Virus record (IMG/VR): IMGVR_UViG_3300028920_000134
Span: 1-42,398 of that record
Reading direction: 5' to 3' (one strand)
DNA length: 42,398 nt
Origin: a virus
The position numbers and the translations under genes are program-made. Each line of letters starts with the position of its first letter. The stretch's first letter is position 1. This document shows, piece by piece, positions 3,698 through 37,650 of the stretch. Below the pieces are notes generated by a model. That model ran no database searches. It was not told the DNA's origin and worked only from the letters and a program-made list of their open reading frames with translations.

Positions 3698-3900
3698 ATA
3701 AAAAAACATATATAATATAAAAATAATTTATCAGCAGTCAACATACCTATTAATAGGACAAAAAGTCAAATGTGGATAACTTGCCCAAAATCGATAAAAA
3801 TAAATAATTTATAAATACAGTAATATCAATAAATAACAGCGGTTTTTGACCGTTTTTGACTGCTAAAAAACAACAAAAAATGACGAAGCTCTTATATGTT
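3698..3900. other. AT-rich segment with DnaA box; possible replication origin
   Basis: This segment is very AT-rich. It contains TGTGGATAA at 3771-3779, the exact complement of the consensus DnaA box TTATCCACA. Repeated GTCAA elements surround it: AGCAGTCAA at 3733-3741, AAAGTCAAA near 3763-3770, and the inverse TTTTTGAC at 3843-3850 and 3853-3860. TTGACTGCT at 3856-3864 forms a 9-bp inverted repeat with 3733-3741. It lies between divergent transcription units. These are typical origin ingredients, but one DnaA box is weak evidence and a second candidate lies in the initiator gene near 40235. Confidence 0.4.
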
Positions 3901-7233: not shown

Positions 7234-7260
7234 TTGTTTACTTTGTGTAGGAGCGGATAA

Positions 7261-7995
7261 TTGGCTCAATGGTATAGAGGTGCTTACGCTTACGGTTTTC
7301 TGCCTATAGGTGCTTACGCGCCTGACATTACAACTGCTGATACTGGCACGCCGTCGGACAGTCCTTCTGCTTCGCCTTCGAGTACGCCGAGCGCGTCTCC
7401 TTCAGTTACGCCTTCTGTAAGTCCATCTTCTTCTCCATCGGCTTCGCCGAGTACCAGTACGTCTCCATCTTCTACGCCGAGCGTATCGCCCAGCGTAAGT
7501 CCGAGTACATCTCCTTCGAGTTCGCCCTCTGCTTCTCCGAGTGTCGGGCCGTCGAGTACGCCTTCGGTCTCGCCGAGTGTTTCCCCTTCGGTTTCACCGA
7601 GCGTGTCTCCAAGCGTAAGCCCCAGTACGTCGCCGTCAAGTTCACCGAGCGCATCGCCAAGTGTTTCGCCTTCGGTGTCACCGTCAACGTCTCCGTCTAG
7701 TTCGCCCAGCGCATCACCTTCGGTATCTCCGAGTGTCTCGCCTTCTGTTTCGCCCAGCACTTCGCCAAGCGTATCGCCAAGTTCTACCCCGTCAGTTTCG
7801 CCGAGCTTTTCGCCCAGCACCTCACCTTCTGCATCTCCTTCGGCGACGCCTTCTGACTTTTATCAAACGTCCTGCTCCAAGACGCTGCGCATAGACCAGA
7901 GCCGGTCGATTGTTTCATATATAGATCAGGCTGTAAGTTTTATTTTGAACATAGACCAGGCAATCAGCAGAACACTTTTAGCGCCTGGCTGTTAG
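7261..7995 (+). CDS. Ser/Pro/Thr-rich mucin-like repeat protein
   Basis: Translation probably starts at TTG (7261), 8 bases after AGGAG. After a 30-residue head (AQWYRGAYAYGFLPIGAYAP) the protein consists, from about residue 33 to 195, of SPSxSPSx repeats (SPSVSPSVSPSTSPSSSPSA-type). The last 45 residues carry an IDQ repeat (LRIDQSRSI, YIDQAVSF, NIDQAISR). All six serine codons are used in a scattered pattern, so the DNA is far less repetitive than the protein. Such tracts are extended, surface-exposed and typical O-glycosylation substrates. The next gene, 13 bases downstream, encodes a glycosyltransferase fusion, which makes this the obvious acceptor candidate. Probably a virion surface stalk or fibre; the acceptor role is inference. 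Confidence 0.75.
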   Translation: MAQWYRGAYAYGFLPIGAYAPDITTADTGTPSDSPSASPSSTPSASPSVTPSVSPSSSPSASPSTSTSPSSTPSVSPSVSPSTSPSSSPSASPSVGPSSTPSVSPSVSPSVSPSVSPSVSPSTSPSSSPSASPSVSPSVSPSTSPSSSPSASPSVSPSVSPSVSPSTSPSVSPSSTPSVSPSFSPSTSPSASPSATPSDFYQTSCSKTLRIDQSRSIVSYIDQAVSFILNIDQAISRTLLAPGC

Positions 7996-8008
7996 GATAC
8001 TAAAGGAA

Positions 8009-10675
8009 ATGAGCAACGATAAAGTAGCGGTAATTATCCCATCTCGAAACGAACCATATTTACAAAAGACTATTGACGAAACCTTGCGTGCCGCAGATGG
8101 CCCGATAGAGGTTATAGCTATTCTCGACGGAACCTGGCCTGAGCAGCCGATACCGGACCATCCTGATGTTACGTTAATTCACCATACTGCTCCGGTCGGT
8201 CAGCGCGCTGCGGTCAACGAAGGCGTGCGTATGACCAATGCCAAGTATATTCTGAAGGTTGATGCGCACAATCTTATGGACGACGGCTTCGATACTAAGT
8301 TGAAGGCCGACTGCGAATACGATTGGACGGTCTTACCCAGAATGTATAATCTGGACATTGAAACCTTCAAAGAGAAAAGACACAAGTGTACCGACTTCAT
8401 GTATATCGGCCCGCCTGACAATCCTGACCATGAGCGTTCTAACAAGATGCGTTCTGATTACTGGCGCAGTTACGGCAAGCGGCCTGAAGCGCAGGGTGAT
8501 ATAGTTGACGTTATGACCGGGCAGGGCGCTTGCTGGTTCATGCACCGGGACAGGTATATTGAGATAGGGTTATTGGATGAGGCTGCCGGTGTCTGGGGTC
8601 AGGTTGGTGTTGAGGTGGCGTTAAAGACGTGGCTGTCCGGCGGTCGTCATGTGGTAAATAAAAAGACATGGTTCTCGCACTGGTTCCGCAAACAGTGGCC
8701 TTACGCCATGACATACGCGCAGCAGGAACACGCCCGTCAGTATTTTTTGGATTTCTGGCTGAACAATAAATATAACTCTGTCCGTCCGTTGTCGTGGGTG
8801 ATAGAGAAGTTCTGGCCGGTCCCGCACTGGACCGAGCCGATGCTTGAGTTTATCAAAAAGCCGGTGTATCCTTTGCCTGATAAGAATAAAGACGATCTGA
8901 CTCTGGTGTATTACACGGCCAATGTAGCCAGTGACAGGATGATGGTTGCTGTCTGCGAAAGACTGTCTCAGGTTGGTAAACCGATAGTGAGTGTTTCGCA
9001 GAAGCCGATGCGGTTCGGCCAGAATGTTTGTATCGGCAAGATTGGCCGTTCTCTTACCAATATATACCGTCAAGTGTTGGAGGGTGCGAAGGCCGCTGAA
9101 ACTGAATACGTGGCTCTGGTCGAGGATGATTGTCTGTATCATTCAAGTCACTTCGACTATCGGCCCGCTGCGGATACCTTTGCTTACAATAAGAACCGCT
9201 GGAACCTTCACGTCGGCGAGGAGATATATTCATACCGCGATACGCCGGTCCTCAGCCAGTGCATAGCGCCGCGCAAACTTCTGATAGAACATCTGGAAGA
9301 AAAACTTGCCTTGCCGGAGATACCGGACAGGCTCAACGGTGAGCCGGGCGTGTTCGACAAGAAGCTGGGTATCACGGAGCGTAAGACGGAAATGTTCAGC
9401 ACGAAGCAGCCGAACGTGGTTTTGTGTCATCGCAAGAATTATCTGGGACGCAAACTAAAGACTGACATTACCGCTGACAGTATAGACTATTGGGGTTCAG
9501 CTAAAAAGGTTATACAGGATTATGTTCTTGACGTTGGCGCGGAGGAAACACCGAACGCTCCGCACAAGATTCCCGCTCCGGCCCAGAAGGGGCCGGTTAA
9601 AGGGCTGCGTGATTTTCCGGTGAAGGAACTGTATGACAATATGTTATGTCTGGCTGAGCCGCGCAAGGGCAAGCGTGACAGTATGGTGAAGGTTATACCA
9701 GCGCTGACCGAGTTTGTGGAGATGTTGAAAAAAGACGACAATCCTTCTGATGAACAGATAAAGCAAACTCAATATTACGAAAATGCTTTAACGAAACTTA
9801 ATCCTCTCGACAAGAATCCTTACACGGAAAAAGGCAAGAAGCATACTGTAAAGAAAGTAAAGGATACGATAAAACTGTTCAGGGATATTCGCGACCACGG
9901 CCTGAAGGCTCCTATAACTTGCTATGCTGCCAGAGGAAGGTTGGCAATTATAAGGGGTTGCCGTCGTTTGATTATAGCGCATGGTCTGGGAATAGAAAAG
10001 ATACAGATAAGGCTGTTCAGAAAATTCAAGTATGTTCAGCTTTGGGACACGGAGGTTGACCAGTGGCAAAGTTATTCCGGTAATCCGAAACGTACTTCCA
10101 TTCACGAGTTGGCGATGCGCCAGTTTATGGAACTTGGCGGTGAGGCGACGGATAAATATTGGGTGCATGGTTACACGCAGATTTACGACAGGTTTTTCCA
10201 TCCATACCGCAGGACAAAGAAGTCTATTCTGGAATTAGGTCTGAAGTACGGCGCGAGCATGAAGCTCTGGCGTGAGGCTTTCCCGAAGGCCAGGCTGGTC
10301 GGCCTGGACAAGAACTATACAACCTGGAAGAAATATACTCCGACGGACAAAAAGACGAAGGTGATTATCGGCGCGCAGGACGATGAGAACACTCTGGCTG
10401 AGGTTGCCAAGGAAGGGCCGTTCGATATTATCATAGACGATTGCAGCCATGTGCCTGAACATCAGATGGCAAGTTTCAATTATCTGTGGAAGCATGTCAG
10501 TTCACACGGCTTGTATGTGATAGAGGATTGCTGGCATTCTTATTGGAAAGACAACAAAGACAGCCCAAACCTGCACCATCATTTCGCCGGTTGGGTGGAC
10601 AAACTATATAGGAACTATTCGGTTTTGGAGATATACCAGAGGGCTAATCTGATTATCATCAAGAAAGGGTTGTAG
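8009..10675 (+). CDS. Four-part fusion: GT2 glycosyltransferase, second GT-A domain, ParB-like domain, SAM methyltransferase
   Basis: 888 residues. Residues 5-250 form a family-2 glycosyltransferase (VAVIIPSRNEPYLQKTIDE, nucleotide-binding AILDG at 37-41, acidic motif KVDAH at 83-87 in place of DxD). Residues 297-500 look like a second GT-A-like domain with VEDDCLY at 371-377. Residues about 615-672 match the ParB/Spo0J N-terminal pattern (DHGLKAPITCYA, then IIRGCRRLIIAHGLGIEKIQI). Residues 725-888 form a class I SAM-dependent methyltransferase: glycine motif ILELGLKYGAS at 740-750 and IIIDDCSHVPEHQ at 807-819, as in TylF/cephalosporin-hydroxylase-like enzymes. The start follows AAAGGAAATG. 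It likely transfers and methylates sugars in the cytoplasm; the ParB-like part's role is unknown. Domain borders are approximate. Confidence 0.8.
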   Translation: MSNDKVAVIIPSRNEPYLQKTIDETLRAADGPIEVIAILDGTWPEQPIPDHPDVTLIHHTAPVGQRAAVNEGVRMTNAKYILKVDAHNLMDDGFDTKLKADCEYDWTVLPRMYNLDIETFKEKRHKCTDFMYIGPPDNPDHERSNKMRSDYWRSYGKRPEAQGDIVDVMTGQGACWFMHRDRYIEIGLLDEAAGVWGQVGVEVALKTWLSGGRHVVNKKTWFSHWFRKQWPYAMTYAQQEHARQYFLDFWLNNKYNSVRPLSWVIEKFWPVPHWTEPMLEFIKKPVYPLPDKNKDDLTLVYYTANVASDRMMVAVCERLSQVGKPIVSVSQKPMRFGQNVCIGKIGRSLTNIYRQVLEGAKAAETEYVALVEDDCLYHSSHFDYRPAADTFAYNKNRWNLHVGEEIYSYRDTPVLSQCIAPRKLLIEHLEEKLALPEIPDRLNGEPGVFDKKLGITERKTEMFSTKQPNVVLCHRKNYLGRKLKTDITADSIDYWGSAKKVIQDYVLDVGAEETPNAPHKIPAPAQKGPVKGLRDFPVKELYDNMLCLAEPRKGKRDSMVKVIPALTEFVEMLKKDDNPSDEQIKQTQYYENALTKLNPLDKNPYTEKGKKHTVKKVKDTIKLFRDIRDHGLKAPITCYAARGRLAIIRGCRRLIIAHGLGIEKIQIRLFRKFKYVQLWDTEVDQWQSYSGNPKRTSIHELAMRQFMELGGEATDKYWVHGYTQIYDRFFHPYRRTKKSILELGLKYGASMKLWREAFPKARLVGLDKNYTTWKKYTPTDKKTKVIIGAQDDENTLAEVAKEGPFDIIIDDCSHVPEHQMASFNYLWKHVSSHGLYVIEDCWHSYWKDNKDSPNLHHHFAGWVDKLYRNYSVLEIYQRANLIIIKKGL

Positions 10676-11611: not shown

Positions 11612-13158
11612 ATATAGCCGAAGAAAAAAAACGCTGCATAGAAGATTTGTATTACCTGGGCTGTAACTTCCTGGGCTATACTGACGCCGAGGAAATACCG
11701 CACCGCCAGTTGTGCGAGTTTATCCAATCGGGACACAAGCGTAAACTGCTGGTCGGCAGCCGCGGTATATACAAAACTTCGTTTGGAACCATAGGCCGGG
11801 CGATACAGCTTATCCTGAAAGACCCGAACATAAGAATCCTGCTGGTTTCCAATACGGCTGACAACGCTTCCAATATGCTCAAAGTCATCCGACAGCAGTT
11901 GGAAAGCAACGGTAAACTGCGTGAATTGTTCGGCGATATAATTCCAGAGAACCCGCGCAAGGTCAAAAAGAAATGGGGCGACAGTAAGATAGAAGTCAAC
12001 CGCGACGGGATATTTCCTGAACCGACTATTACCGCCGCCGGTGCTGACAAGCAGTTTGCCTCCGGTCACTATGACGTTATTCTGGGCGACGATACGGTTG
12101 CCGCCCGCAAGGACGACATACGCGACGACGGCGTGATAGTGCTGCGGGACGAAGATGTTCAAAAAGCAGTCGGCCTGCACCGGCTTATGATGCAGGGCTT
12201 GAAGATTCTCAAGAAGGAATTGGAGATACAATACATACTCAACCGCTGGGGCGTGCATGACTTTGCCCGCTGGATGATGGACCATCAGATATACAATGAG
12301 GATACGCGCCCGAACGGATTCACCTTCAAGCAGATGGCGGTCCATAACGAGGATGGCTCTTTATTGTGGCCTGACGTATTGACCGAGGAGGAACTAGATC
12401 AGATACGCGAAGATCAGGGCGACTTCATTTACTATACGCAATATGAATGTATGCCTTACAATCCTGCCAACCGCGGGTTCCCGCCCGAAGATAATACTTA
12501 CTGGGAAGGTGACTTGCCGCCCGGTTATCAGAGTGGCAGCAAGCGTTATCGCCGGTTCATCCTGATTGACGTGGCCGACTCTCTCAACCCTGCCAGTTGC
12601 AATACCGCTATGGTATATCTGTTTGTCGATGAGAATAATCACCTCTGGGTCCATGAGGCGCTTCGGGGCCGGATGGACACCAACGAGAAGATAAAGAATA
12701 TTCACCGGCTGGTTCGCAAGTACAATATGCGGCGCGTGCATATCGAGGAAAACCTGCACAACGATACGCTGAAGTATGTTCTGCGGGAGGCTATGCGCAA
12801 GGAAAGTATTTCTTACAATGTTATGCCGTTGAAACACAAGAACAGAAACAAGGATGCCCGTATCCTGCGGTTGCAGCCGTATCATCAGCGGGGCGCGATA
12901 CACATACACAAAAGACACCGCGAACTGCAACAGGAGATGCGCGACTTCGGTTATACGAACTTGAAGGATTTACTGGACGCTCTGGGCTACGCTCTGGATT
13001 TTGTCAAGGGGCCGCCTTCAACCATGCAGAATGACAACTTTACCCGCGACCCTAATACGGTTTACCTCAGTGACATAATGCGGGATATGCCGGTTATGAA
13101 GTATGGCGGCGGCGTTTTCAAGTCACAGAATAAATTAACGCAAAAGGAAGCTGTTTGA
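11608..13158 (+). CDS. terL: Terminase large subunit
   Basis: A 516-residue protein starting with GTG, overlapping the previous stop. It is the DNA-packaging motor. The N-terminal ATPase has a Walker-A-like loop GSRGIYKTS at 50-58, a Walker B strand VILGDD at 157-162 and a likely coupling motif further on (LNRWGVHD near 210). The C-terminal RNase-H-like nuclease has RFILIDVADSL near 315, VHIEENLHND near 371-380 and LLDALGYALDF near the end, giving the three acidic positions of the metal site. Length and order are normal for TerL. No small terminase was recognised nearby. It lies directly upstream of a paralogous gene pair and the portal gene, as usual in phage head modules. Confidence 0.9.
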   Translation: MNIAEEKKRCIEDLYYLGCNFLGYTDAEEIPHRQLCEFIQSGHKRKLLVGSRGIYKTSFGTIGRAIQLILKDPNIRILLVSNTADNASNMLKVIRQQLESNGKLRELFGDIIPENPRKVKKKWGDSKIEVNRDGIFPEPTITAAGADKQFASGHYDVILGDDTVAARKDDIRDDGVIVLRDEDVQKAVGLHRLMMQGLKILKKELEIQYILNRWGVHDFARWMMDHQIYNEDTRPNGFTFKQMAVHNEDGSLLWPDVLTEEELDQIREDQGDFIYYTQYECMPYNPANRGFPPEDNTYWEGDLPPGYQSGSKRYRRFILIDVADSLNPASCNTAMVYLFVDENNHLWVHEALRGRMDTNEKIKNIHRLVRKYNMRRVHIEENLHNDTLKYVLREAMRKESISYNVMPLKHKNRNKDARILRLQPYHQRGAIHIHKRHRELQQEMRDFGYTNLKDLLDALGYALDFVKGPPSTMQNDNFTRDPNTVYLSDIMRDMPVMKYGGGVFKSQNKLTQKEAV

Positions 13159-13700
13159 TGACTCGTACAGTAAGAAAAGTTACTCCCTGTATTCCCTGGA
13201 AACTGTTTCCTAAATACATCACTAATGCTACGGAAGGAACAAGGAATATTATAGGCAAAGAAGGCGGCTGGGCCTCAAGAAACTCTGACGGTATCCTGGT
13301 CAATGTGCATGACTTTTTAGGTCATCAGGTAAAAAATATATTGCTGTGTCCTTATGTGGAAAGCTGCAAGGATGGCACAGCGATACTTTATAGTATTTTT
13401 GGTTTCCGTGGCCGTAACAATAATGCTGTTTATACCATCAATGGTGCGTTTACAACGGGGGAGTATGTGGTATCTTTACGGTGTAACGGTGAACCTGTAA
13501 TTACCTCTGGCCGCTACTGTGACACAGTGGGAATAACAGATGCCAGAGGGGTAACTTATACTACTTATGACGCCAGCGGAAAGAACGGCAGGGGCTTTTT
13601 GCAATTTGACGCAAATGGCTGTGATATAATAACAATAGAACCAACTTATGTCGTGCCAGGAACAGACGGCAGATTATACTTTGAAATATCAGGTTTTTAA
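13158..13700 (+). CDS. Structural-type protein, paralogue A
   Basis: A 180-residue protein starting MTRTVRKVTPCIPWKLF; its ATG overlaps the terminase stop (TGATG). It shares with the next gene an N-terminal motif MTRT-R-VTP-IPWK, a central LL-PY-ESC followed by I-G-RG, the strand TGEYVVSLRCNGEPVITSG (TGGYTVSLRCDGNAVVTSG downstream), and the C-terminal GRxYxEISGF. The pattern suggests a beta-rich, probably trimer-forming surface protein such as a decoration or fibre domain. No known family is named. Position between terminase and portal supports a virion role. Confidence 0.75.
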   Translation: MTRTVRKVTPCIPWKLFPKYITNATEGTRNIIGKEGGWASRNSDGILVNVHDFLGHQVKNILLCPYVESCKDGTAILYSIFGFRGRNNNAVYTINGAFTTGEYVVSLRCNGEPVITSGRYCDTVGITDARGVTYTTYDASGKNGRGFLQFDANGCDIITIEPTYVVPGTDGRLYFEISGF

Positions 13701-13711
13701 GGAGTATCGTA

Positions 13712-14233
13712 ATGACTCGTACTATAAGAGAAGTTACCCCGGTTATCCCCTGGAAGTTCATGTTCCAGAACCGGACGGCCAAGCCGACGGTGACATTGGG
13801 TAACAAGCATGGCGGCTGGGCCAGAAGGCATTTGGTTTCAGCAATCGACCCGCGCACTATTCTGGGCTACAATATAAATACGCTGCTGTTGTCGCCTTAC
13901 ATTGAAAGCTGCAACGTCAATGTCAGACAACAGTTTAATATTGTCGGTTATCGAGGCCCGCAGAATAACCTGGAAAGAATTGCCTTGGTTTCCTGCACAA
14001 CAGGCGGCTACACTGTGTCGCTGCGCTGCGATGGCAACGCGGTAGTTACCAGCGGCAAATATTGTGATCACTTGTCTGTCGTGAGTTCCTACGGTCACAG
14101 TATAGACAGGTTTGATTATAAGGCGGCTAACGGTCGGTCTTATATGTCTTTTGACCTGCAAGGTGTCTCCCTGATAGGTATATACTTTACTGAGCTTACA
14201 GGCCGCGCCTTTATGGAAATATCGGGATTCTAA
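13712..14233 (+). CDS. Structural-type protein, paralogue B
   Basis: A 173-residue protein starting MTRTIREVTPVIPWKFM with an AAGGAG-like ribosome site. It is a diverged tandem paralogue of the preceding protein (matching start, LLLSPYIESC, VSLRCDGNAVVTSG and the C-terminal AFMEISGF). Differences are concentrated in the middle (residues ~20-45 and 115-150), which would be expected for exposed loops under diversifying selection. It ends two bases before the portal start. Function not established; likely virion surface. Confidence 0.75.
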   Translation: MTRTIREVTPVIPWKFMFQNRTAKPTVTLGNKHGGWARRHLVSAIDPRTILGYNINTLLLSPYIESCNVNVRQQFNIVGYRGPQNNLERIALVSCTTGGYTVSLRCDGNAVVTSGKYCDHLSVVSSYGHSIDRFDYKAANGRSYMSFDLQGVSLIGIYFTELTGRAFMEISGF

Positions 14234-14234
14234 A

Positions 14235-15992
14235 ATGAAAAAGAACCAGTTAGATGCTCTCAAAGAACTGCGCAAGCGGTCTGAGGAATACCGCAATTCG
14301 CTGTATTCGGAGGCCGACTTCGATATGTACGAAAGCTACTGGCGGGGCGAATATCCCGGTGTAGGTGACGATATATTGCCGGTCCCGACTCTGACCAGTA
14401 ACGCCAAGCGGCAGATGTCGTCCCTGTTCGGCGGCACGCCCAGAGTGGTCATATCGGCCAATGATTTTGAGTCTTTGCCATCAGCCAGAGTTGCGACTGA
14501 ATATATAAATATGCTCATCCGCGAAACTAACCTGCTCGAAGAACTTAAAGACGCGGGCCAGGACGCCATAACCAACGGCAGCGGTTTTCTGGTTGACGGG
14601 TTCGGCAGTGAATATGGGACTTCCAAGGAAGCCCTGTTCAGCGGCTTTGAGCCGACCAGAACTGACGCCGAAGGCTTGAGGCAGTTGGAATATAAAGAGA
14701 ACGTCAAGAGTAATATGCCCTGGACGCTTCGGGTTCATCCGGCTGACATACTCCTGCCGCCCGATACGATTCGTTGCCGGTACGCTTACGGCTTCTTCCA
14801 CCGCTGCGTCAGGCATATCGACGAAGTGAGGGCCGACGAGAAATATATAACCAAGCACCGGCTGAAAATAAAACCTGATACTCATTACGATTACACCAGA
14901 GAGAAACATGATACTTCTACTGCCAAGAACGACTACCTTACCTTGTGGACCTGGCACGACCTTAGAACAACCAAGGTGGTAGTGTTCAACGAGAACTATG
15001 ACTTTGCCTTACTGGATAACACTGACGAGATAATGTACCGGACGGAACGGTGTCAGTTGCACGACATTATATTCAATCCTATCCCGCGTATGTGCTACGG
15101 GGCGAGTGACTTTCACCTTATGGCTAACCTGGCTAGAGAGGTGAATGACATACGCACGATGCAGATGCGGCAGAGGCGCATTCAGATATTCAAGGGCGTT
15201 TACAACCGCACCATGCTTGAAGGGCTGGAAGATTACGAACAGATAAAAAAGGCCATCAAGGGCTTGACCTCTGACGAAGTTGGTGCTTTGATAGGTATTG
15301 ACGGCGACCCGAACCAGTTCTTGAAGGGAATCCAGCCCGGTCAGGCTATGGATATGCTGCCCTCGCTTGACCTGGCTAAAAAGGAAATAGAGGAATACGG
15401 CCTGAACGTCGGGCCGCGCCAGAAGGGACAAATGGAATCTGGCCGCCATACCGCCTACGAAACGCAGGTTGCCGAAGGGCATTATCAGCGTACTATTTAT
15501 CCGCGTATGCAGGCGGTCCAGAAATCAGTGTTGAAGATAGCAGAGAATTGGCTGCAACTCCTGAAGGACTTTATTATCGAACCTATTGCCATTAGGACAT
15601 ACGACGCAGCCGGAATGCCGGTACTGGTACAATTTACCGGATTAGATTTAACTGGTGACTTTAGGTTCGATATTTCTATGGAGTCTATGCAATCCATGAG
15701 TAAGGAGGACAAGATACGGGAGGCCAATATGATCCTGTCTCAATCCATGCCGTTTGTGCAGGGCGGGATCGCCAATCCTGAGATGCTCTATCGCCAGTGG
15801 TTGAGCCGGGTCGCTTCCGAGGATTGGCAGTTGGAGGCTCTGTGCGCCAGGCCGCTTGGCACCGGCCCAGGCCCGGTCCCGTTCGGCCAGTATCAGGATA
15901 CGTTTCGCAAACAGGTTCCACAAAATACCAACTCTATCGCTGCCATGATGCAGAACCAGAATATGTTCGGGGGACAGGGAAAAGCCGGATGA
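14235..15992 (+). CDS. Portal protein
   Basis: A 585-residue protein. The N-terminal region (EYRNSLYSEADFDMYESYWRGE) and the following LTSNAKRQMSSLFGGTPRVVI are typical of podovirus-type portals. The central part holds ELKDAGQDAITNGSGFLVDG and YGLNVGPRQKG. A long helical segment near residues 415-445 (AVQKSVLKIAENWLQLLKDF) fits the wing/stem helices. The C-terminus is Gly/Gln-rich. The portal forms the dodecameric ring through which DNA enters and leaves, contacting the terminase encoded upstream. Its stop overlaps the start of the radical-SAM gene (ATGA), placing that enzyme in the head operon. Confidence 0.85.
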   Translation: MKKNQLDALKELRKRSEEYRNSLYSEADFDMYESYWRGEYPGVGDDILPVPTLTSNAKRQMSSLFGGTPRVVISANDFESLPSARVATEYINMLIRETNLLEELKDAGQDAITNGSGFLVDGFGSEYGTSKEALFSGFEPTRTDAEGLRQLEYKENVKSNMPWTLRVHPADILLPPDTIRCRYAYGFFHRCVRHIDEVRADEKYITKHRLKIKPDTHYDYTREKHDTSTAKNDYLTLWTWHDLRTTKVVVFNENYDFALLDNTDEIMYRTERCQLHDIIFNPIPRMCYGASDFHLMANLAREVNDIRTMQMRQRRIQIFKGVYNRTMLEGLEDYEQIKKAIKGLTSDEVGALIGIDGDPNQFLKGIQPGQAMDMLPSLDLAKKEIEEYGLNVGPRQKGQMESGRHTAYETQVAEGHYQRTIYPRMQAVQKSVLKIAENWLQLLKDFIIEPIAIRTYDAAGMPVLVQFTGLDLTGDFRFDISMESMQSMSKEDKIREANMILSQSMPFVQGGIANPEMLYRQWLSRVASEDWQLEALCARPLGTGPGPVPFGQYQDTFRKQVPQNTNSIAAMMQNQNMFGGQGKAG

Positions 15993-17032
15993 AGAATTTG
16001 AAAACCGTATTCCTGCCGCGTATGTATGAATATATCGGGGCGTTTCTGACGTTCGACTGCAACCTGAAATGCCCTTACTGTATCAATCGGTTCGGCGACT
16101 TTGCCTGGAAAAACCCCCCGCTGAATTACCGGCCAGCCGAACAGTGGTTGACCGCCCTTACTCGCATAATGGGCATACATAAAACTGGTACGGATATTTT
16201 GCCGGTTACTTTATGCGGGGGAGAACCAACCTGCCATCCGCAATTCTACGATATAGTGCGGGGGCTTTATGAATACGGATACAAGACCGACCTGCTGACC
16301 AACCTGTCATTTAACGTGCAGGAGTTTGTGGATAATGTCCCGGCTGACGTGTTCATCAGGGAGATATACTATCCAACTATCCGGGTTTCGTTTCACGCTA
16401 CAGTTATGCCGAACACCAAAGCGTTCAGAAAGAAGTTTATCGACAAGGTGTGTTTCCTGCGCGACAGCGGGTATCCTATCGGTATCTATACCATTAACAC
16501 AGAGGAAGGGATAGAGGCCAATAAGTCCATGGCGCAGTTGGCGTCGGTGAATAATATCGCCTTTTATGTTAAGCCTTATCTGGGCTATGACGACAATGGC
16601 GTGCTGCGGGGCAGATATACTTACCCCGAAGCCCTGAACGAAATAAAGCGCAAGGCCAAATGCCGGACCAGAGAACTGTTAATCTCCCCGTCGCTGGATA
16701 TATACCGCTGCCATCACGACTTATATAAGGACATTAACCCGCTGGGCAGCCTGCTGGACAAAGACGTGTCGATAGACTATATGTTCCGTAACTGTGACAA
16801 TCTTGGCAAGTGTAACCCTTGCGATGTTAAGAGCAAGACTTCAAGACATGGGACTGTGGGCTACACTTCAGTTGATATAATTGACGTTGTAAAAGAACAG
16901 GAGACAGAATATGGCTTTGAGAAAGATTTCAAAAGCGACAGTGCCGGTAAAAATAAAAAGAGCGGAAGAAAAAAAAGAGCAACCAGAAGCACAAATGCTG
17001 TGCAGCCTGACCAGACGCCCGATAACCAATGA
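15989..17032 (+). CDS. Radical SAM enzyme with C-terminal Cys cluster
   Basis: 347 residues from the ATG overlapping the portal stop; a longer in-frame extension upstream lies inside the portal gene and is not used. The 4Fe-4S motif CNLKCPYC uses Cys24, 28 and 31, and LCGGEPT follows near residue 75. A C-terminal cluster (YRCHHDLY, then CDNLGKCNPCDVK) resembles SPASM/twitch auxiliary iron-sulfur sites, seen in enzymes that modify peptides or sugars. The substrate cannot be told. The last ~40 residues are a Lys/Ser/Thr-rich tail overlapping the next gene in another frame. Its position between portal and glycosyltransferase/acyltransferase genes suggests virion protein or sugar modification. 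Confidence 0.85.
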   Translation: MKNLKTVFLPRMYEYIGAFLTFDCNLKCPYCINRFGDFAWKNPPLNYRPAEQWLTALTRIMGIHKTGTDILPVTLCGGEPTCHPQFYDIVRGLYEYGYKTDLLTNLSFNVQEFVDNVPADVFIREIYYPTIRVSFHATVMPNTKAFRKKFIDKVCFLRDSGYPIGIYTINTEEGIEANKSMAQLASVNNIAFYVKPYLGYDDNGVLRGRYTYPEALNEIKRKAKCRTRELLISPSLDIYRCHHDLYKDINPLGSLLDKDVSIDYMFRNCDNLGKCNPCDVKSKTSRHGTVGYTSVDIIDVVKEQETEYGFEKDFKSDSAGKNKKSGRKKRATRSTNAVQPDQTPDNQ

Positions 17033-17159
17033 CCAGTATTTGCTGATAGAGGGGAAGCCTTGCAGTTACGTGGCTTTAATCGGCTATCTGGGCCAGACTG
17101 AGTTCAACAAACTGATGAGCGTGTTGAATCAGCACGCAGTAAAAAGGTATGCAATATAA
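16911..17159 (+). CDS. Small overlapping protein
   Basis: An 82-residue frame beginning at ATG 16911 after AGGAGACAGAAT. It overlaps the radical-SAM 3' end by 122 bases in a different frame. The N-terminal 28 residues are Lys/Glu-rich; the rest (LCSLTRRPITNDQYLLIEGKP, then LIGYLGQTEFNKLMSVL) looks like a folded small protein. The ribosome site is good and it ends 11 bases before the next gene, which has AAGGAAATAAGGC before its ATG. It could alternatively start later. No family is recognised. Confidence 0.55.
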   Translation: MALRKISKATVPVKIKRAEEKKEQPEAQMLCSLTRRPITNDQYLLIEGKPCSYVALIGYLGQTEFNKLMSVLNQHAVKRYAI

Positions 17160-17170
17160 GGAAATAAGGC

Positions 17171-17470
17171 ATGGCTATTTACGAGTATATATGTGAGAAG
17201 TGTAACCAGAAATGCGTTTATGGTTTTTCCATCGGTAAACAGCCGGACTCTACCTGGTGTCATTTCTGCGGAGAGAACGCCAAACTGGTTATCGCCCCGC
17301 CGAAAAGCGCCTACGTTAAGGGCAAGGGGCTGCGGGCCGGATGCGGAACCGAGAAGGGTATTTGTACCACCCTGCCCGGCGAGCCGGTCTATGTGAAGAA
17401 TCAGCAGCATTTTAAGGAGTTATGTAAGGAGCGTTCGGAGGAATATAATACAGATATTCATCCGGCCTGA
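17171..17470 (+). CDS. FmdB-like zinc-ribbon protein
   Basis: A 99-residue protein. MAIYEYICEKCNQKCVYGFS, then WCHFCGENAKLV, is the short zinc-ribbon pattern of the FmdB family (YEYxCxxCxxxF...CPxCG). The four Cys are at residues 8, 11, 30 and 33. The rest (KGKGLRAGCGTEKGICTTL) has further Cys and Gly. FmdB-type proteins are common and poorly understood; some act with enzyme operons in anaerobes. Its place inside the radical-SAM/glycosyltransferase cassette suggests a small partner or regulator of these enzymes. Confidence 0.75.
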   Translation: MAIYEYICEKCNQKCVYGFSIGKQPDSTWCHFCGENAKLVIAPPKSAYVKGKGLRAGCGTEKGICTTLPGEPVYVKNQQHFKELCKERSEEYNTDIHPA

Positions 17471-17492
17471 AAACAAAACTAAAGGAAATAAG

Positions 17493-18731
17493 ATGCCTCA
17501 AGATTACTACCAATCCAGAGAGTTTTTTCGTCGAAAAAAAAGAATAAAGCTGGGACTTGAGCGCCCGCGCATTGTGGGCGAGACAAGCGTTCTTACTACA
17601 TTTCTGCAATACTTTACCAAGACGAGCCTCAAGGCTTTTACTAAAGCGGGCTGCGAAACATTTCTGCTGATAGACGACCAGGTTGACGTTACGGACGATA
17701 TGCGCCGCAAGGTTTTAGATGAGTTCAGGCCCGACATTTATTATCTGGTCAGCCACAGCCGCGTAGGAAGCACGTTGCCGAAAGCTGTTTCAGTTATAAG
17801 TTATGTGCAGGATTGCTGTGGTCCTATGACTACTAAGGAAAGAATAGACAATCTGATCCAGCCGTCCGACTTGTTTATTTGTCAGGCAGACGGCTTTAAG
17901 AAATATCTGACCGACAAGAAGGTTCCAGAAGAACAGATAATGACTGAGCCGGTCCCGGTTGACCACGAAAAGTTTTTTCCGGCCCCGCTTGACTTTGAGC
18001 GGGACGTTGTTCTGGTGAACCATGCTTACAAGCCGCCGCAGGAGATGATGGACTTGTTTATGACAACTCATTTTGGCGGCAAGCAGTCTGACAAGATGCG
18101 GAAGTTCTTTGAGGTCTTATTGGCGTGGCTGATGTGCCGCGACTATGTTAGCGAAAAAGAGTTTACCGACCATGTTTTCAAAAAACTGATGGTTTTTGCC
18201 GACAATAGCGCAACTGTTCAATGGCGGCAGTTGCTTCATGTTTTTTACGTTACGGTTTACTATGCTTACTGGCGTGAGATGATAATCAAAAAGCTGCTGA
18301 AAAGCGGGGTGAAACTTGAGATATACGGCAACAACTGGCAGGGGTTCGATATACCCGAAGATATAATCAAGGGTGATTATTGTGATGAAGAAAAGCGTAA
18401 CGAACTTTACAATACCAGTAAGGTTGTTTTGCAGCTTAACCCCCAGATGACTATGCACCAGCGGGTAGTTGAGGTTGCCTTGGCGGGCGGGCTGCTGGTC
18501 GGTGTTGACCTGCCTGAAAAAGATGATTGGTGTCAGGCCAAGAAGTATATGGGCTATACTTATTTTTATCCTGTCAATGAACTGGCAGAAAAGATAAAAG
18601 AGTTAATACTGAGGCGTGAGAAAGGTGAACTAGAAGTTGAGCTTGAGTGTAATCACCGTGAGGCTTTCCGCAATCACAGCGCTGAGGTTGTTGTGCATAA
18701 GATACTCGATAAGTGGAGAGAGTTATTATGA
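17493..18731 (+). CDS. GT-B glycosyltransferase (CgeB-like)
   Basis: A 412-residue protein with AAAGGAAATAAG before its ATG. It has the two-lobe architecture of GT-B enzymes: an N-terminal lobe with LIDDQVDVTDDMRRKVLDEF and YYLVSHSRVGS, a linker around 160-190 (MTEPVPVDHEKFFPAP) and a C-terminal lobe with KLEIYGNNWQGF, followed by LQLNPQMTMHQRVVEVALAG. In CgeB/GT4-type enzymes the last segment contacts the nucleotide sugar. It would transfer a sugar from a nucleotide donor in the cytoplasm; donor and acceptor are unknown. Its stop overlaps the next gene (ATGA), coupling it to the acyltransferase. Confidence 0.8.
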   Translation: MPQDYYQSREFFRRKKRIKLGLERPRIVGETSVLTTFLQYFTKTSLKAFTKAGCETFLLIDDQVDVTDDMRRKVLDEFRPDIYYLVSHSRVGSTLPKAVSVISYVQDCCGPMTTKERIDNLIQPSDLFICQADGFKKYLTDKKVPEEQIMTEPVPVDHEKFFPAPLDFERDVVLVNHAYKPPQEMMDLFMTTHFGGKQSDKMRKFFEVLLAWLMCRDYVSEKEFTDHVFKKLMVFADNSATVQWRQLLHVFYVTVYYAYWREMIIKKLLKSGVKLEIYGNNWQGFDIPEDIIKGDYCDEEKRNELYNTSKVVLQLNPQMTMHQRVVEVALAGGLLVGVDLPEKDDWCQAKKYMGYTYFYPVNELAEKIKELILRREKGELEVELECNHREAFRNHSAEVVVHKILDKWRELL

Positions 18732-19393
18732 AAGACGAAAGGATTGTAATACTGGGCATGGGCGGTCACGGCAAGGTTGCACACGACATACTCTGCCAGA
18801 AACATTATCCTGACCATGTGTTTTTTCTGGACAATGATGTGGATAAGTGGAACCAGTGCTATCACGGGTCAAGGTGTCTGGGCGCTATAAAAGAGAACCT
18901 GAGTGGCTGGGACGGTCTGTTCATAGCCATAGGCGACAATGTAGTGCGCTGGCATCTGATGAACATGGTGGAAAAACAAGGCTACTTCTGTCAGGTGGCG
19001 ATAGATGAATCCAGTATGTCAACCAGGTGCATAATTCATCAGGGAGCTATGCTGGCGAAGGGCGCTATCCTGGGCGTAGGTTCGGTGGTTAGAAGGTGCG
19101 CCATTCTCAATAGCGGCTGTATCGTGGACCACGAATGCGATATAGGCCGCTGCGTTCATATTGCCCCCGGCGCTAAGCTGGCGGGCGGTGTCAAGGTTGG
19201 CGACCGAGCCTTTGTCGGTCTGGGGGCAAATATTATACAAGGTGTTACTATCGGGCCGGACGCTGTTATCGGCGCCGGTTCGGTGGTATTGAAAGATGTG
19301 CCGCAAGGCGAGGTCTGGGCCGGTGTTCCGGCCCGTAAGATAAAAGAAAACGAGTGCATAAATGTCGAAACGAATACTGCTGATATATCCTAA
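18728..19393 (+). CDS. NeuD/PglD-like sugar acyltransferase
   Basis: A 221-residue protein starting MKDERIVILGMGGHGKVA at the ATG overlapping the previous stop. Residues 1-80 form the Rossmann-like N-terminal domain with GMGGHGKV at 10-17, typical of NeuD/PglD acyltransferases. Residues ~95-205 form a left-handed beta-helix with hexapeptide repeats, ending in the family signature GAGSVVLKDVPQGEVWAGVPARKI. A catalytic His is likely in VDHECDIG. Family members acetylate an amino sugar such as sialic acid or bacillosamine. It belongs to the phage sugar-modification cassette. Its 3' end overlaps the next radical-SAM gene by 32 bases. Confidence 0.85.
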   Translation: MKDERIVILGMGGHGKVAHDILCQKHYPDHVFFLDNDVDKWNQCYHGSRCLGAIKENLSGWDGLFIAIGDNVVRWHLMNMVEKQGYFCQVAIDESSMSTRCIIHQGAMLAKGAILGVGSVVRRCAILNSGCIVDHECDIGRCVHIAPGAKLAGGVKVGDRAFVGLGANIIQGVTIGPDAVIGAGSVVLKDVPQGEVWAGVPARKIKENECINVETNTADIS

Positions 19394-20759
19394 ACTGGAT
19401 TCATTTTTTAACAAGCTGTCTCTGCACGCCCCTTACGAGCTTTTGTGTATCGCCAGTGTCTTGCAGGATGAAGGCTGGGAGGTTGACATATATGACCAGC
19501 GGTTCTGCGAGCCGGAGCAGGAGCAACATGAGATAAGCGATATGCTTCTCTATACCAAGTATGACTATGTTGGCATATCGGTAATGACCGGCAAGCAGAT
19601 TAAGTACGCTATGGAGATAACCGAGGTCTGTAACCTGTATCGCATTCCGGTTATCTGGGGCGGCTGGCATTGTCGGGTATGTCCCGAACACATAGAAGAA
19701 TATAGAAACTCCGGCAGATTATTCGATTTTGTTTCTGGCGAGGGAGAGGAAGGGATATTGGGAGCGATAGGTGGGGTACAGTTTCCTGTTATTGCCAAAG
19801 ACCCGACGCTTGACTTTGTAACTCCGCTACCTTGGGACTTGGTTGACGTCGAAAGATATGTCAATAACGATGCGGTTGTGGGAAGGTCTTTGCCGTTTCA
19901 GTTAGGGAGGGGTTGTTCCTACGCCTGCGGGTTCTGCTCCAACTCTGTTGCGAAAGTACAGCAAAGATATATGTCAACCGATGCAGCTTTGGAAGAAATC
20001 AACAGGATGGTTGACAAGTACAAGCTGGACAGTATTTTCCTGCTGGACGAGAACCTCTGGGACAATCCTAACCTGACTGATATTATGAACGACCTGGATG
20101 GCAGGGTGAAGTGGTATGCTCAGATGCGGGCCAGGGATATATGCGACATTGAACGCTGCAAGGACATGATTCGCTGGGGTTGCGAGCGGGTAGGTATCGG
20201 TTGTGAGAGTGGCTCCGACCAAATACTCAAGGATATGAGAAAACAGGAAACCAGCCGCGACCTTAGAAACTCCAACCTGTTTCTGTGCATGACCCCGATA
20301 GAGTCATGGAACACCTGGATTATGGGCTGGCCCGGCGAGACGATGGAGGACATAAAAGATACGGTTAATCTGGCGATCCGAATGATCTGCGATAACCATA
20401 ACTGCTATCACAATAATTTCTATATGCTGGTTCCGTATCCGAAAACCAAGGCGGCCAGAGACAAGAGGGTTGCCCCGCACCTGCCCGACACGCTGGAAGG
20501 CTGGGCTGAGTATGACCGGCACAACTATAACTGTCCCTGGCAGCCGGAGGAGTTACGAAAGGTCTATCAGCGGATAGGGTTTTCTTCCAAGTTTGTAGGC
20601 CGCAGGCTGAAGAAGTTCCCGCAAACGCACGAATTGGAAATGAGGTTCCGTCAGAAGTGGTGGGACTTTGACTTCTTTGACGATGAAGAATGGGCCGGTT
20701 TACTCTTGGAAGGCAAAGAGGTATTAAATGATGTGTTCGAGAAAAACCAAGGTAGGTAA
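19362..20759 (+). CDS. B12-binding-type radical SAM enzyme
   Basis: A 465-residue protein. The N-terminal ~130 residues resemble cobalamin-binding domains of class B radical SAM enzymes (LLIYP at the start, VIWGGWHCRVCPEH in place of GGxHxTxxPE). The radical SAM core begins GRGCSYACGFC with Cys185, 189 and 192, followed by FLLDENLWDNPNL and the typical ERVGIGCESGSDQILKDM. Related enzymes methylate or rearrange unreactive carbons, including in sugars and antibiotic precursors; the exact reaction here is unknown. The cobalamin pocket is judged from general pattern only. The gene overlaps the acyltransferase upstream and the following gene downstream, so it is translated as part of the late operon. 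Confidence 0.85.
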   Translation: MSKRILLIYPKLDSFFNKLSLHAPYELLCIASVLQDEGWEVDIYDQRFCEPEQEQHEISDMLLYTKYDYVGISVMTGKQIKYAMEITEVCNLYRIPVIWGGWHCRVCPEHIEEYRNSGRLFDFVSGEGEEGILGAIGGVQFPVIAKDPTLDFVTPLPWDLVDVERYVNNDAVVGRSLPFQLGRGCSYACGFCSNSVAKVQQRYMSTDAALEEINRMVDKYKLDSIFLLDENLWDNPNLTDIMNDLDGRVKWYAQMRARDICDIERCKDMIRWGCERVGIGCESGSDQILKDMRKQETSRDLRNSNLFLCMTPIESWNTWIMGWPGETMEDIKDTVNLAIRMICDNHNCYHNNFYMLVPYPKTKAARDKRVAPHLPDTLEGWAEYDRHNYNCPWQPEELRKVYQRIGFSSKFVGRRLKKFPQTHELEMRFRQKWWDFDFFDDEEWAGLLLEGKEVLNDVFEKNQGR

Positions 20760-21453
20760 CGCTTTTTGCCGAGCCGCCCGCCGGGTAAACAGTTGCGTAA
20801 AGCAGTTTAAGCGGCATTATCTGGAACTGGCAGAGCGGGGTGATGACTTCTCGCTGTGGCAGGGTTTCATGCGGTGCGGGCCGAAGCTGGTGGATTGGCT
20901 GGTGCTATGCCGCCTGTATCATGGGCTGAAGGAGTATTTTACCGAGCCGAATGACCCTGATTACATTATGAAACGGCTTATCGAAGTAACCGATAACGTC
21001 TTTATTTGTAATGACTTACGAGAATCCTGCGAGTATGTAAGGGCGTGTTTTCCTCAAGTTTTGAAGCTGATTGCCAACCATGATTTTGGCAGGATAGACC
21101 CGAATGCCGCGATGCTGTCGGACGAGCCTGTTCTGGCAGAGCTTCGGGGGCTTGAAGCAAAGCCCTCTCTAAAGAATTGTTATTTCACTACTTATGAGGT
21201 TCCTCAGTTTTCCGTACCCTTCACAGAGGAGATAGAGGAGAATCGTATTTGCGATAGTATTGATATAGCAGAGGCCGACACGGGCCGATTATCCGAGTTG
21301 GCCTGTACTTGCTATTACTATATGTATGGTAAGCTGTTGGAAGATGTCAAAGAGCTGGCCTGGAACAGAATGGACAGCGATCCGGTGCGGGAAGGATATG
21401 ACTTCTGTTGGACGTTTATCAATCATATTTACGAAAGGAAAAAGCAAAAATGA
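20728..21453 (+). CDS. Hypothetical Cys-containing helical protein
   Basis: A 241-residue protein, starting at the ATGATG pair at 20728 within the end of the radical-SAM gene (32-base overlap). It has about ten Cys residues and many charged helical segments (HYLELAERGDDFSLWQGFM, then DPDYIMKRLIEVTDNVFICN). The later part contains ELACTCYYYMYGKLLEDVKEL. No domain is recognised. A partner role for the radical SAM enzyme, for example substrate recognition, is possible from the coupling but not shown. It could equally be a structural head component. Confidence 0.65.
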   Translation: MMCSRKTKVGNAFCRAARRVNSCVKQFKRHYLELAERGDDFSLWQGFMRCGPKLVDWLVLCRLYHGLKEYFTEPNDPDYIMKRLIEVTDNVFICNDLRESCEYVRACFPQVLKLIANHDFGRIDPNAAMLSDEPVLAELRGLEAKPSLKNCYFTTYEVPQFSVPFTEEIEENRICDSIDIAEADTGRLSELACTCYYYMYGKLLEDVKELAWNRMDSDPVREGYDFCWTFINHIYERKKQK

Positions 21454-21833
21454 CTTCGATGTTGCAAGATAGAGAAGCAAAAAGAAAAGACAGAATCCGC
21501 AGCGAGGATGTTGAGATACTCAAGCGGAAGAATGACGAGTTGCAAGAAAAGCTCTCTCTGACTGAGATGGAGAAAGATGCCCTGCGTACCGAGGTTATGA
21601 AGGTGCAAAGGGAGTTGGACAATATGAAGGTGGCCCCGAAGGAGGCTCATATTGTCTTAGAGCCGGGCGAGGAACCAAAGATTAACCTGACAGGTATGTG
21701 GTTTCCGCGTGATTATCACCGGCTTTCAGGTGCGTTTGTGCGGGCCATACGCCTGCATAAGATTGATATTGCTAAAGAAAATAAAGCTGAAAAGGAAATA
21801 ACCAATGCCAGAAAACCTGGAACAAGAAAATGA
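21450..21833 (+). CDS. Small coiled-coil protein
   Basis: A 127-residue protein starting MTSMLQDREAKRKD at the ATG overlapping the previous stop (ATGA); an earlier start would be embedded in the upstream gene. Residues 10-60 form a strongly charged coiled coil (VEILKRKNDELQEKLSLTEM). The rest contains ITNL-type segments near PGEEPKINLTGMWFPRDYHR, as in short head-assembly proteins. It overlaps the scaffold-like gene by 29 bases. A minor scaffold or capsid-morphogenesis role is plausible. Confidence 0.65.
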   Translation: MTSMLQDREAKRKDRIRSEDVEILKRKNDELQEKLSLTEMEKDALRTEVMKVQRELDNMKVAPKEAHIVLEPGEEPKINLTGMWFPRDYHRLSGAFVRAIRLHKIDIAKENKAEKEITNARKPGTRK

Positions 21834-22554
21834 ACTGGAAGAACAGTTTGAAGATGACGACCCGGAAGGGGAAGTAGGCAACGAGTCGGAAGAACTCGAA
21901 CCCGAAGATAGTCAAGACGAAGAAGATGGCGAAGAAGAAAGTTCGACCGAGCAACAGGCCGGTGAACCGGACGCCGCAACCAAGCGCCTCGAAAACCTAG
22001 AGAACAAATTTGGTGAGTTCTCGCAGTATTTGAGCCAGTTAGCCGACGGAGTTAAACGCCTCTCTCAGCAACCGCAGCCGCAACCGCAGCCGCAGAACCG
22101 GCAAGGGATACACCCGCCGGTAAGCTGGGACGAGATGGACCAGAGGCAGTTGGCCGAATATATGCAATCGCAGACAGGTGCTATGCTGGGTCAGACAGTT
22201 AAAGGCTTGCAGCAACAGATTGGTACTAAACTTACGGTTTACGACCAACTGTTTGATGTACTGCTTGAAAACCATCCGAACAAGGATGCCATATACCGGG
22301 CTGTGAACGAGTTAAGTCGCAACCCCAGTATGAATTTCAAAACAGCCTTTGAACACGCGCAAGGGTCAACGCTGAAAAGCCGTTTGGAGGCGCTTGAGAA
22401 AGAAAATGCCCAATTAAAGCGCTCAAAAAAAAATAGACGCCAGCAGGCACGAAATCTGTCGCATCGTCCCTCGAATGTCAAAAGCAGACAGGACAGGAAC
22501 AGGAGCCTAGCCGAAGATACAGAGGAGGCCATGAAGGAATTACTCGGAGGCTAG
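21805..22554 (+). CDS. Scaffolding-like protein
   Basis: A 249-residue protein with a very acidic N-terminus (residues 1-60 almost half Glu/Asp), Gln/Pro repeats near 88-98 (QPQPQPQPQ), helical middle segments (MQSQTGAMLGQTVKGLQQQI) and a strongly basic C-terminus (KKNRRQQARNL). Acidic start, helical body and basic tail immediately upstream of a major capsid gene are the hallmarks of phage scaffolding proteins, which organise capsid assembly and are then removed. No protease was recognised nearby, so the scaffold may exit intact. A candidate with no specific family. Confidence 0.7.
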   Translation: MPENLEQENELEEQFEDDDPEGEVGNESEELEPEDSQDEEDGEEESSTEQQAGEPDAATKRLENLENKFGEFSQYLSQLADGVKRLSQQPQPQPQPQNRQGIHPPVSWDEMDQRQLAEYMQSQTGAMLGQTVKGLQQQIGTKLTVYDQLFDVLLENHPNKDAIYRAVNELSRNPSMNFKTAFEHAQGSTLKSRLEALEKENAQLKRSKKNRRQQARNLSHRPSNVKSRQDRNRSLAEDTEEAMKELLGG

Positions 22555-22565
22555 ACTTCGTTAGG

Positions 22566-22647
22566 TCTGCCTGTGGTGTGCAGGCAGAATAACGCAAGTT
22601 AAGTTGCTGGCGTGTGAGTGCGCACTCGCTCACACGTCAGTTTTTTT
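22566..22647 (+). terminator. Hairpin plus intrinsic terminator in the capsid-gene leader
   Basis: Two hairpins lie between scaffold and capsid genes. The first has TCTGCCTG (22566-22573) and CAGGCAGA (22581-22588), 8 perfect pairs. The second has CTGGCGTGTGAG (22607-22618) and CTCACACGTCAG (22629-22640), a 12-bp stem with one G-U pair, followed by TTTTTTT (22641-22647), a classic intrinsic terminator. The capsid ribosome site AAGGAG starts 5 bases later. As transcription must cross it to express the capsid from the upstream operon, readthrough or a separate promoter is needed. Confidence 0.7.
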
Positions 22648-22667
22648 ATGCAAGGAGATCGTGCAAA

Positions 22668-23663
22668 ATGGCTAAAAGTTATTACAAGGTGGATAATAGT
22701 ACGACGGTTGAAATGGACCAACTGTTCGTTACTACTATGGACCGACGCGCCAAGCAGTTGGTGGACCAGATATTCAAAAAGAATATCGCTCTGGCCTTCC
22801 TGCTGTCGATGAAAGATACGACCATGATCCAGGGGGGCAAGCAGTTTATTGTCCCGCTGGAAGTTGAAGAAAACCCGCATGGCGGCTGGATTAACGACGA
22901 GGAAGGTATCCCGATGGATGACTATGATCCTGTGGATGCCGCGATTTACGGACCTAAGAGTCTCTCGTACAACGTCCGGTTCAGTCGTGAGCAGAGATTT
23001 GTCAACCGTGGCGACGTTCGGGTTCATTCACTGATGAGCATCAAGGAACGCAATACCATCAAGTCCATGCAGAAGCGGCTCGAAGAAGCCATCTGGACCG
23101 GCGACGGAACCAACCAGAAGGTTATGGACGGCCTGCCGAAGATTATTCCCGCTACCGTACCTGCAAGTCAGTCGGTAACGGTAGGTGGTATCAGTCCCTC
23201 ATCTAAGAGTTGGTGGCGCACGCAGGCCAGAAATATGTCTGGCATGGCGGCTGCCGCTGAACTCGAAGCGGAACTGCTGACGCTTTACAACGATATTGCG
23301 TTGGAAGGCGGCACAGTTAATATGAACTTCACTTCCCAGGATATTGCCGAGACATACGAGAAGAACCAGATGGACTATCTCAGTGTCGGTATGACCAAGG
23401 TGGGTGATTTCAATTTTGAGACAATCAAGTACAAAGGCGGCCCGATTTCCTTCTCCGACCTGGCTCCCGCCGGTGAATGGAGAATGGTTGACAAGGAGGC
23501 TTTGATATTTGCTGTTGATCCTGCGTACTGGATGCGCTGGACCAAGGACAAGGAACAGGTTGACAATCCGTTCACGTCGCACCGGCAGATACTTTCTCGT
23601 TGCAACCTTTGTCGTCGTGAGGCCCGCACGCTGGGCTGCATTTACAACATTACTGCGGGCTAA
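22668..23663 (+). CDS. Major capsid protein
   Basis: 331 residues from MAKSYYKVDNS, the ATG 10 bases after AAGGAG; an earlier in-frame ATG at 22614 lies inside the terminator and is rejected. Sequence and position (after scaffold, before adaptor and nozzle) fit the HK97-fold capsid group: RRAKQLVDQIFKKNIALAFLL in the first third, the loop MIQGGKQFIVPLEVEENPHG, then MQKRLEEAIWTGDGTNQKVM, and a long beta region. The terminal CNLCRREARTLGCIYNITAG contains three Cys. Assigned by context and length. The alternative is a related capsid-like protein, but no other gene in the window is a better candidate. Confidence 0.8.
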   Translation: MAKSYYKVDNSTTVEMDQLFVTTMDRRAKQLVDQIFKKNIALAFLLSMKDTTMIQGGKQFIVPLEVEENPHGGWINDEEGIPMDDYDPVDAAIYGPKSLSYNVRFSREQRFVNRGDVRVHSLMSIKERNTIKSMQKRLEEAIWTGDGTNQKVMDGLPKIIPATVPASQSVTVGGISPSSKSWWRTQARNMSGMAAAAELEAELLTLYNDIALEGGTVNMNFTSQDIAETYEKNQMDYLSVGMTKVGDFNFETIKYKGGPISFSDLAPAGEWRMVDKEALIFAVDPAYWMRWTKDKEQVDNPFTSHRQILSRCNLCRREARTLGCIYNITAG

Positions 23664-37632: not shown

Positions 37633-37650
37633 TTTTTTCTTTTTTTTCAC

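Follow-up and report, generated by a model that had tools for sequence, protein, structure and literature searches.

The 42,398-bp IMG/VR record IMGVR_UViG_3300028920_000134, from an uncultured phage, carries two radical S-adenosylmethionine (SAM) enzymes, a glycosyltransferase and a sugar acetyltransferase between its portal and scaffold genes. We refer to the complete record, the whole stretch of DNA analyzed here, as the window. The genes lie in a 5.4-kb block (positions 15993 to about 21407) that comparison with related phages identifies as an insertion into the head operon, and this cassette probably encodes a pathway for an unusual sugar. The sugar reading is supported by the finding that the families of both radical-SAM enzymes occur together in bacterial surface-glycan loci.

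All of the cassette genes named in a preliminary description of this DNA are present between portal and scaffold on the + strand. The first encodes a twitch-type radical-SAM enzyme (15989-17032; PF04055 above cut-off), here called rSAM1. Further downstream are an FmdB-like zinc ribbon (17171-17470), which scores below the curated cut-offs of both PF09723 (26.9 vs. 34.4 bits) and TIGR02605 (26.0 vs. 31.3 bits), a GT-B glycosyltransferase (17493-18731; Glyco_trans_1_2, PF13524, 39.5 bits vs. a cut-off of 25), a NeuD/PglD-type sugar acetyltransferase (18728-19393) and a B12-binding radical-SAM enzyme (B12-rSAM; 19362-20759; PF02310 followed by PF04055, both above cut-off), for which no NCBIfam equivalog model reaches its cut-off. 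By its sequence the acetyltransferase is a true member of the NeuD family: it matches TIGR03570 (183.1 vs. a cut-off of 160.8 bits), PF17836 (PglD_N), PF00132 hexapeptide repeats and PDB 4ea7 (E 9e-31), and its VDHEC stretch aligns with the VDHDC of perosamine N-acetyltransferase. The linkage of these genes by ATGA junctions or short overlaps, as previously described, was confirmed for portal/rSAM1 and GT-B/NeuD (ATGA) and for NeuD/B12-rSAM (32 nt), but the zinc ribbon is flanked by gaps of 11 and 22 nt. Two genes have to be added to the original list. One is a small open reading frame (ORF; 16911-17159, +) that shares 122 nt with the 3' end of rSAM1 and has a good ribosome-binding site; it matches no family, and we are unsure that it is real. 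The other is the last gene of the block (20728-21453, +), which overlaps B12-rSAM by 32 nt; its product has no family match, and its single-sequence fold, computed without relatives, is uninformative (predicted local distance difference test, pLDDT, 38). Neither the 16911 ORF nor the zinc ribbon has a homologue in any rSAM1 locus, and the idea that either belongs to a conserved module was rejected.

Sequence features of rSAM1 are a radical-SAM core and, toward the C-terminus, a twitch-type auxiliary-cluster motif. In all 32 aligned members of the family, including that of the window, the CxxxCxxC at residues 24-31 (Cys 24, 28, and 31) and a GGEP motif are invariant, as are Cys 225, 241, 269, 275, and 278, which bears out the extra cysteine cluster noted earlier. 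The auxiliary motif reads C...GX4C ... CX5CX2C; its Gly is nearly invariant across the family and is replaced by Leu in the window. There is no match to PF13186 (SPASM) in rSAM1. The AlphaFold model (whole-model pLDDT 85, predicted template modeling score 0.81) is ordered over residues 1-304 and ends in a disordered, Lys-rich tail (305-347). Foldseek searches with this model returned SuiB, SkfB, SpeY, DesII, BlsE, and PqqE, so that a peptide and a sugar substrate cannot be told apart by the predicted fold alone. An acyl-carrier-like match to residues 252-317 was dropped, because up to residue 297 it lies within the conserved rSAM1 domain.

The family is large. A degenerate DNA pattern derived from the rSAM1 motif GxCNPCDxK was run on IMG/VR and hit 41 contigs, every one of which encodes an rSAM1 homologue (33-43% identity, mostly spanning residues 4-297), and a profile scan identified members in 196 GTDB genomes and 60 viral loci. 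Exact-peptide scans of IMG/VR with rSAM1, B12-rSAM and TerL and of genomes with B12-rSAM gave no matches, nor did INPHARED searched by DNA; among the INPHARED isolate phages, tblastn at E 1e-5 retrieved nothing for rSAM1 and only Streptomyces phage SF3 for B12-rSAM. We found no description of the rSAM1 family in the full-text literature on radical-SAM enzymes with transketolase or glycans. The rSAM1 proteins are a large, uncharacterized enzyme family with, judging from the company it keeps, a likely new sugar reaction.

Of the 196 rSAM1-bearing GTDB genomes, 80 were kept; the neighbor counts cover 75 genome loci and 48 non-redundant viral loci. Within six genes of cellular rSAM1 we found a second, SPASM-type radical-SAM enzyme (43 of the 75 loci), GT9 heptosyltransferases (36), GT2 glycosyltransferases (33), B12-rSAM (31), and the C-terminal half of a transketolase (29). 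Cellular rSAM1 genes thus sit in clusters for surface glycans, whose other members include B12-rSAM, heptosyltransferases, thiamine-dependent enzymes in split form, and the second radical-SAM enzyme. The best match to the window's B12-rSAM in the Geobacter OR-1 genome (28 candidates scored) lies directly beside that genome's rSAM1, and the best match in a Nitrospira genome lies within a polysaccharide cluster. In a Nitrospira metagenome-assembled genome, genes for FlgK, an FlgL-like flagellin, FliW, DegT, and NeuD precede a NeuB::rSAM1 fusion (a 659-aa ORF in the flagellar operon, positions 6945-8924 of locus L138), which is followed by a second radical-SAM enzyme, GT9, transketolase halves, and B12-rSAMs. 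In Sulfurospirillum, rSAM1, a second radical-SAM enzyme, and transketolase halves have as neighbors a true Maf transferase and a flagellin. When the window was scanned for the neighborhood set, rSAM1 (311 bits) and B12-rSAM (192 bits) were recovered; with NeuD, the window thus brings together three parts of the Nitrospira locus. The preliminary description had left open a methylated or acylated sugar and a modified virion peptide as products. The sugar half gained from these glycan-locus families and from the NeuD assignment, whereas for the peptide half only the shared radical-SAM fold speaks.

The viral loci show a related gene content, with a second radical-SAM enzyme in 36 of the 48, GT2 in 19, the two halves of an E1-type thiamine diphosphate (TPP) enzyme in 16 each, transketolase halves in 10 each, and a 138-aa protein in 14. 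A module of variable gene order, comprising rSAM1, the second radical-SAM enzyme, the 138-aa protein, and the alpha and beta parts of a split TPP enzyme, recurs in unrelated phages (in five loci and in further ones from IMG/VR); we found no description of it. In two viral loci rSAM1 stands immediately before portal, protease, and major capsid protein genes, and in two others it lies near the portal. Seven loci of one phage group have, a few genes away from rSAM1, an ORF of about 470 aa that resembles chaperonins.

To place the cassette in its genome, we compared the head operon with those of related phages. The gene order of the window, with TerL at 11608, portal at 14235, scaffold at 21805, and major capsid protein at 22614, is that of an uncultured, T7-like podovirus. 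The portal (14235-15992, +), which forms the left border of the block, matches SU10_portal (PF23899) weakly, is 20-28% identical to the portals of phage A-4L and of the window's kin, and matches the portals of six related rSAM1-bearing IMG/VR records at E 1e-21 to 1e-40; the capsid family is common to the same six. The right border is a small pre-scaffold gene (21408-21833, +) whose homologues lie between portal and scaffold in kin phages; the similarity is weak (E 4e-5 to 6e-4) and was seen in three of the six kin examined. Next come a putative scaffold (21805-22554, +), assigned by its position, its acidic, coiled composition, and a slot shared with kin, and the major capsid protein (22614-23663, +; phrog_9953, E 2e-30). 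A scan by TerL alignment gave 80 related loci, in 49 of which both portal and capsid genes are visible. In these 49, the distance from portal end to capsid start is 569-1980 bp (median 1238), mostly filled by one to three small genes and the scaffold, whereas in the window it is 6.6 kb and falls to 1207 bp when 15993-21407 is subtracted. We conclude that the stretch from rSAM1 to 20728 was inserted between the portal and the pre-scaffold gene at 21408.

The cassette is missing from this site in all 49 kin, and a conserved head-operon position for the cassette was therefore rejected. Scattering or absence of the cassette genes in close relatives had been named beforehand as an outcome that would speak against the proposed pathway; order and position are indeed not shared, but rSAM1 itself is found in 6 of the 22 kin records longer than 20 kb, always at other positions (two of the six apparently come from one population). 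In a 124-row tree the rSAM1 sequences of the kin phages do not group, and at least four changes are forced; that of the window sits on a long, unplaced branch with no supported neighbors. The simplest reading suggested by this tree is that rSAM1 was gained repeatedly and separately within one phage group. Repeated gain points to selection for the product, with phage-host conflict as the probable setting in which the sugar is selected.

Two genes outside the block bear on the acceptor of the sugar. The product of 7261-7995 (+; 244 aa) is a Ser/Thr/Pro-repeat, mucin-like protein with central repeats, in which these residues make up 87% of the densest 60 positions. Only 13 nt downstream, 8009-10675 (+) encodes a fusion of a GT2 glycosyltransferase (PF00535) to a C-terminal, MycE-like sugar O-methyltransferase (PDB 3ssm, E 1e-21), with a possible second GT-A-like stretch, seen by eye, and a weak ParB-like stretch. 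Because the fusion carries a sugar O-methyltransferase, it is plausible, as proposed earlier, that cassette and fusion form one system. The isolate-phage methyltransferases most similar to the 8009 domain include those of Mycobacteroides prophages; in the one prophage examined, prophiFSAT01-1, the gene, with a glycosyltransferase next to it, immediately precedes the terminase genes, a placement comparable to that in the window. Given the place of the cassette in a late operon and the presence of the repeat protein, we favor a virion protein as acceptor and virion attachment as the leading purpose, which we rate as about as likely as not.

We interpret the inserted block as moron-like: it brought sugar-modifying enzymes into the operon of late head genes, and these would act in an order that we infer as follows. 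rSAM1 would catalyze a radical reaction (of the oxidation, epimerization, or deoxygenation kind) of a sugar that is either activated or bound to a glycan; B12-rSAM would methylate an unactivated carbon, acetylation of an amino group would fall to the NeuD-type enzyme, and the GT-B enzyme would transfer the sugar. The acceptor would most likely be a co-synthesized virion protein, with the 7261-7995 product as first candidate, and the 8009 fusion may extend and O-methylate the glycan. In its fullest form, this proposal describes phage protein glycosylation by radical chemistry, in which a twitch radical-SAM enzyme and B12-dependent C-methylation place a sugar new to viruses on a mucin-like Ser/Thr/Pro virion protein, and in which rSAM1 marks a widespread, undescribed glycan pathway of phages and bacterial envelopes. 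We advance it tentatively, as an idea that may well fail in one or more of its parts. If it holds, the core of the pathway in phages would usually be rSAM1 plus a further radical-SAM enzyme and a thiamine-dependent enzyme in split form, and the 138-residue protein would often accompany them. The comparison of loci also links the unexplained radical-SAM genes of phages, reported in Campylobacter phages since 2010, to a definite biochemical setting, the surface-glycan and flagellin-glycosylation loci of bacteria, and it supplies testable candidates in rSAM1, B12-rSAM, NeuD, the 8009 fusion, and the candidate acceptor.

Several observations weigh against this proposal. In the scan for the neighborhood set, the window lacked the second SPASM-type radical-SAM enzyme, the split TPP enzyme, GT9, and the 138-aa protein. 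In no other phage did NeuD or the window's GT-B accompany rSAM1, except for a partial NeuD-like match in one. Of the 115 genes nearest to rSAM1 in viral loci, more are replication or DNA-methyltransferase genes than virion genes, and none of 1404 ORFs from these loci contains a stretch of 50% or more Ser/Thr/Pro. Finally, the NeuB::rSAM1 fusion comes from a single assembled genome and could reflect a lost stop codon, although the adjacency of the two genes stands.

The main rival explanation is host-surface conversion, in which the cassette enzymes would produce or change a sugar of host lipopolysaccharide, capsule, or surface layer late in infection, blocking superinfection or the binding of progeny to debris. 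Most cellular rSAM1 loci resemble lipopolysaccharide clusters, as the frequency of heptosyltransferases illustrates, other rSAM1 phages encode LicD, cytidylyltransferase, and epimerase genes, and glycosyltransferases in the host-recognition region of pelagimyophages have been viewed in this way (PMC7029224). However, coupling to portal synthesis in a late operon is late for such a conversion, and the scan of cassette and window genes turned up no flippase, polymerase, or lipid-carrier transferase; we consider host-surface conversion possible but less likely than not. Maturation of a structural or secreted peptide by both radical-SAM enzymes, in the manner of ribosomally synthesized and post-translationally modified peptides, would fit the best fold matches of rSAM1, the peptide maturases SuiB and SkfB, but the same search also returned the sugar enzymes SpeY, DesII, and BlsE, no NCBIfam peptide-maturase equivalog came near its cut-off (e.g., 25.2 vs. 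425 bits), and cell and phage loci contain glycan enzymes where a peptide partner would be expected and none was found, which makes this quite unlikely. Both radical-SAM enzymes and glycosyltransferases of phages take part in known cases of DNA hypermodification. For the glycosyltransferases, this role is also cited in PMC12619734. That the phage genome itself bears a sugar or another group made by radical chemistry is nevertheless the least probable reading, as a thymidylate-synthase-type gene (PF00303) is absent from the window (a record that may be incomplete) and occurs in just one of the 47 phage records with rSAM1.

Elsewhere in the window, virion and internal proteins extend to 36625 and are followed by a sigma factor and replication genes. 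The record has no exact terminal repeat. At its left end, 3-1013 (+) runs off the record and encodes the C-terminal part of a possible Maf/MptE-like glycosyltransferase; its assignment as a Maf transferase was not upheld, since PF01973 scores 24.6 bits against a cut-off of 34.6 for this truncated gene and BLAST similarity to the Sulfurospirillum Maf was lacking. A serine recombinase/resolvase is encoded at 870-1595 (-; PF00239, E 4e-39). The genes at 5110 and 6241, before the repeat protein, have weak beta-helix/DUF5123 matches. Between TerL and portal lies a paralogous pair (13155-13700 and 13712-14233) without assigned function and without homologues in any of the viral and cellular rSAM1 loci searched. 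At the right end, the product of 41773-42396 contains an Ala-rich tandem-repeat stretch and runs past the record end. An imperfect, possibly regulatory pair of 60-nt inverted repeats (3670-3729 and 37619-37678) has AGTATATCACCGAT in common.

Among characterized enzymes, BtrN is a twitch radical-SAM aminocyclitol dehydrogenase. SpeY, a twitch sugar/aminocyclitol dehydrogenase, resembles rSAM1 in joining a radical-SAM core to a C-terminal auxiliary-cluster motif; however, the Foldseek TM-score to such dehydrogenases is only about 0.3. MycE/TylF-type macrolide sugar O-methyltransferases resemble the C-terminal domain of 8009, which differs in being fused to GT2. The bacterial glycan loci of Geobacter OR-1, Nitrospira, Sulfurospirillum, and Helicobacter contain rSAM1, B12-rSAM, and glycosyltransferases as the window does, with NeuD in Nitrospira, but commonly add the second radical-SAM enzyme, split transketolase, and GT9 that the window lacks.

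With respect to phages, the earlier statement that no similar pathway had been described needs tempering. The nearest published precedent is in Campylobacter phages CP220 and CPt10, which carry 11-12 radical-SAM genes of unknown role, including an interchangeable module of five (PMC2853527). Modules of radical-SAM genes are also present in Campylobacter phages CP21 and IBB_35 (PMC3322345), and some pelagimyophages have radical-SAM cassettes, likewise of unknown function, besides glycosyltransferases (PMC7029224). The Campylobacter phages share with the window the possession of multiple radical-SAM genes, and the rSAM1 model retrieves their proteins by fold; unlike the window, they are large and distantly T4-like, and they have no rSAM1 tblastn match at E 1e-5. 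Mycobacteriophage capsid and tail proteins bear glycans (Freeman et al., 2023, as cited in PMC12619734); the passages of that article concerned with them mention no radical-SAM enzyme. Overall, the cassette belongs with the glycan-modification cassettes of phages and is built on an uncharacterized radical-SAM family.

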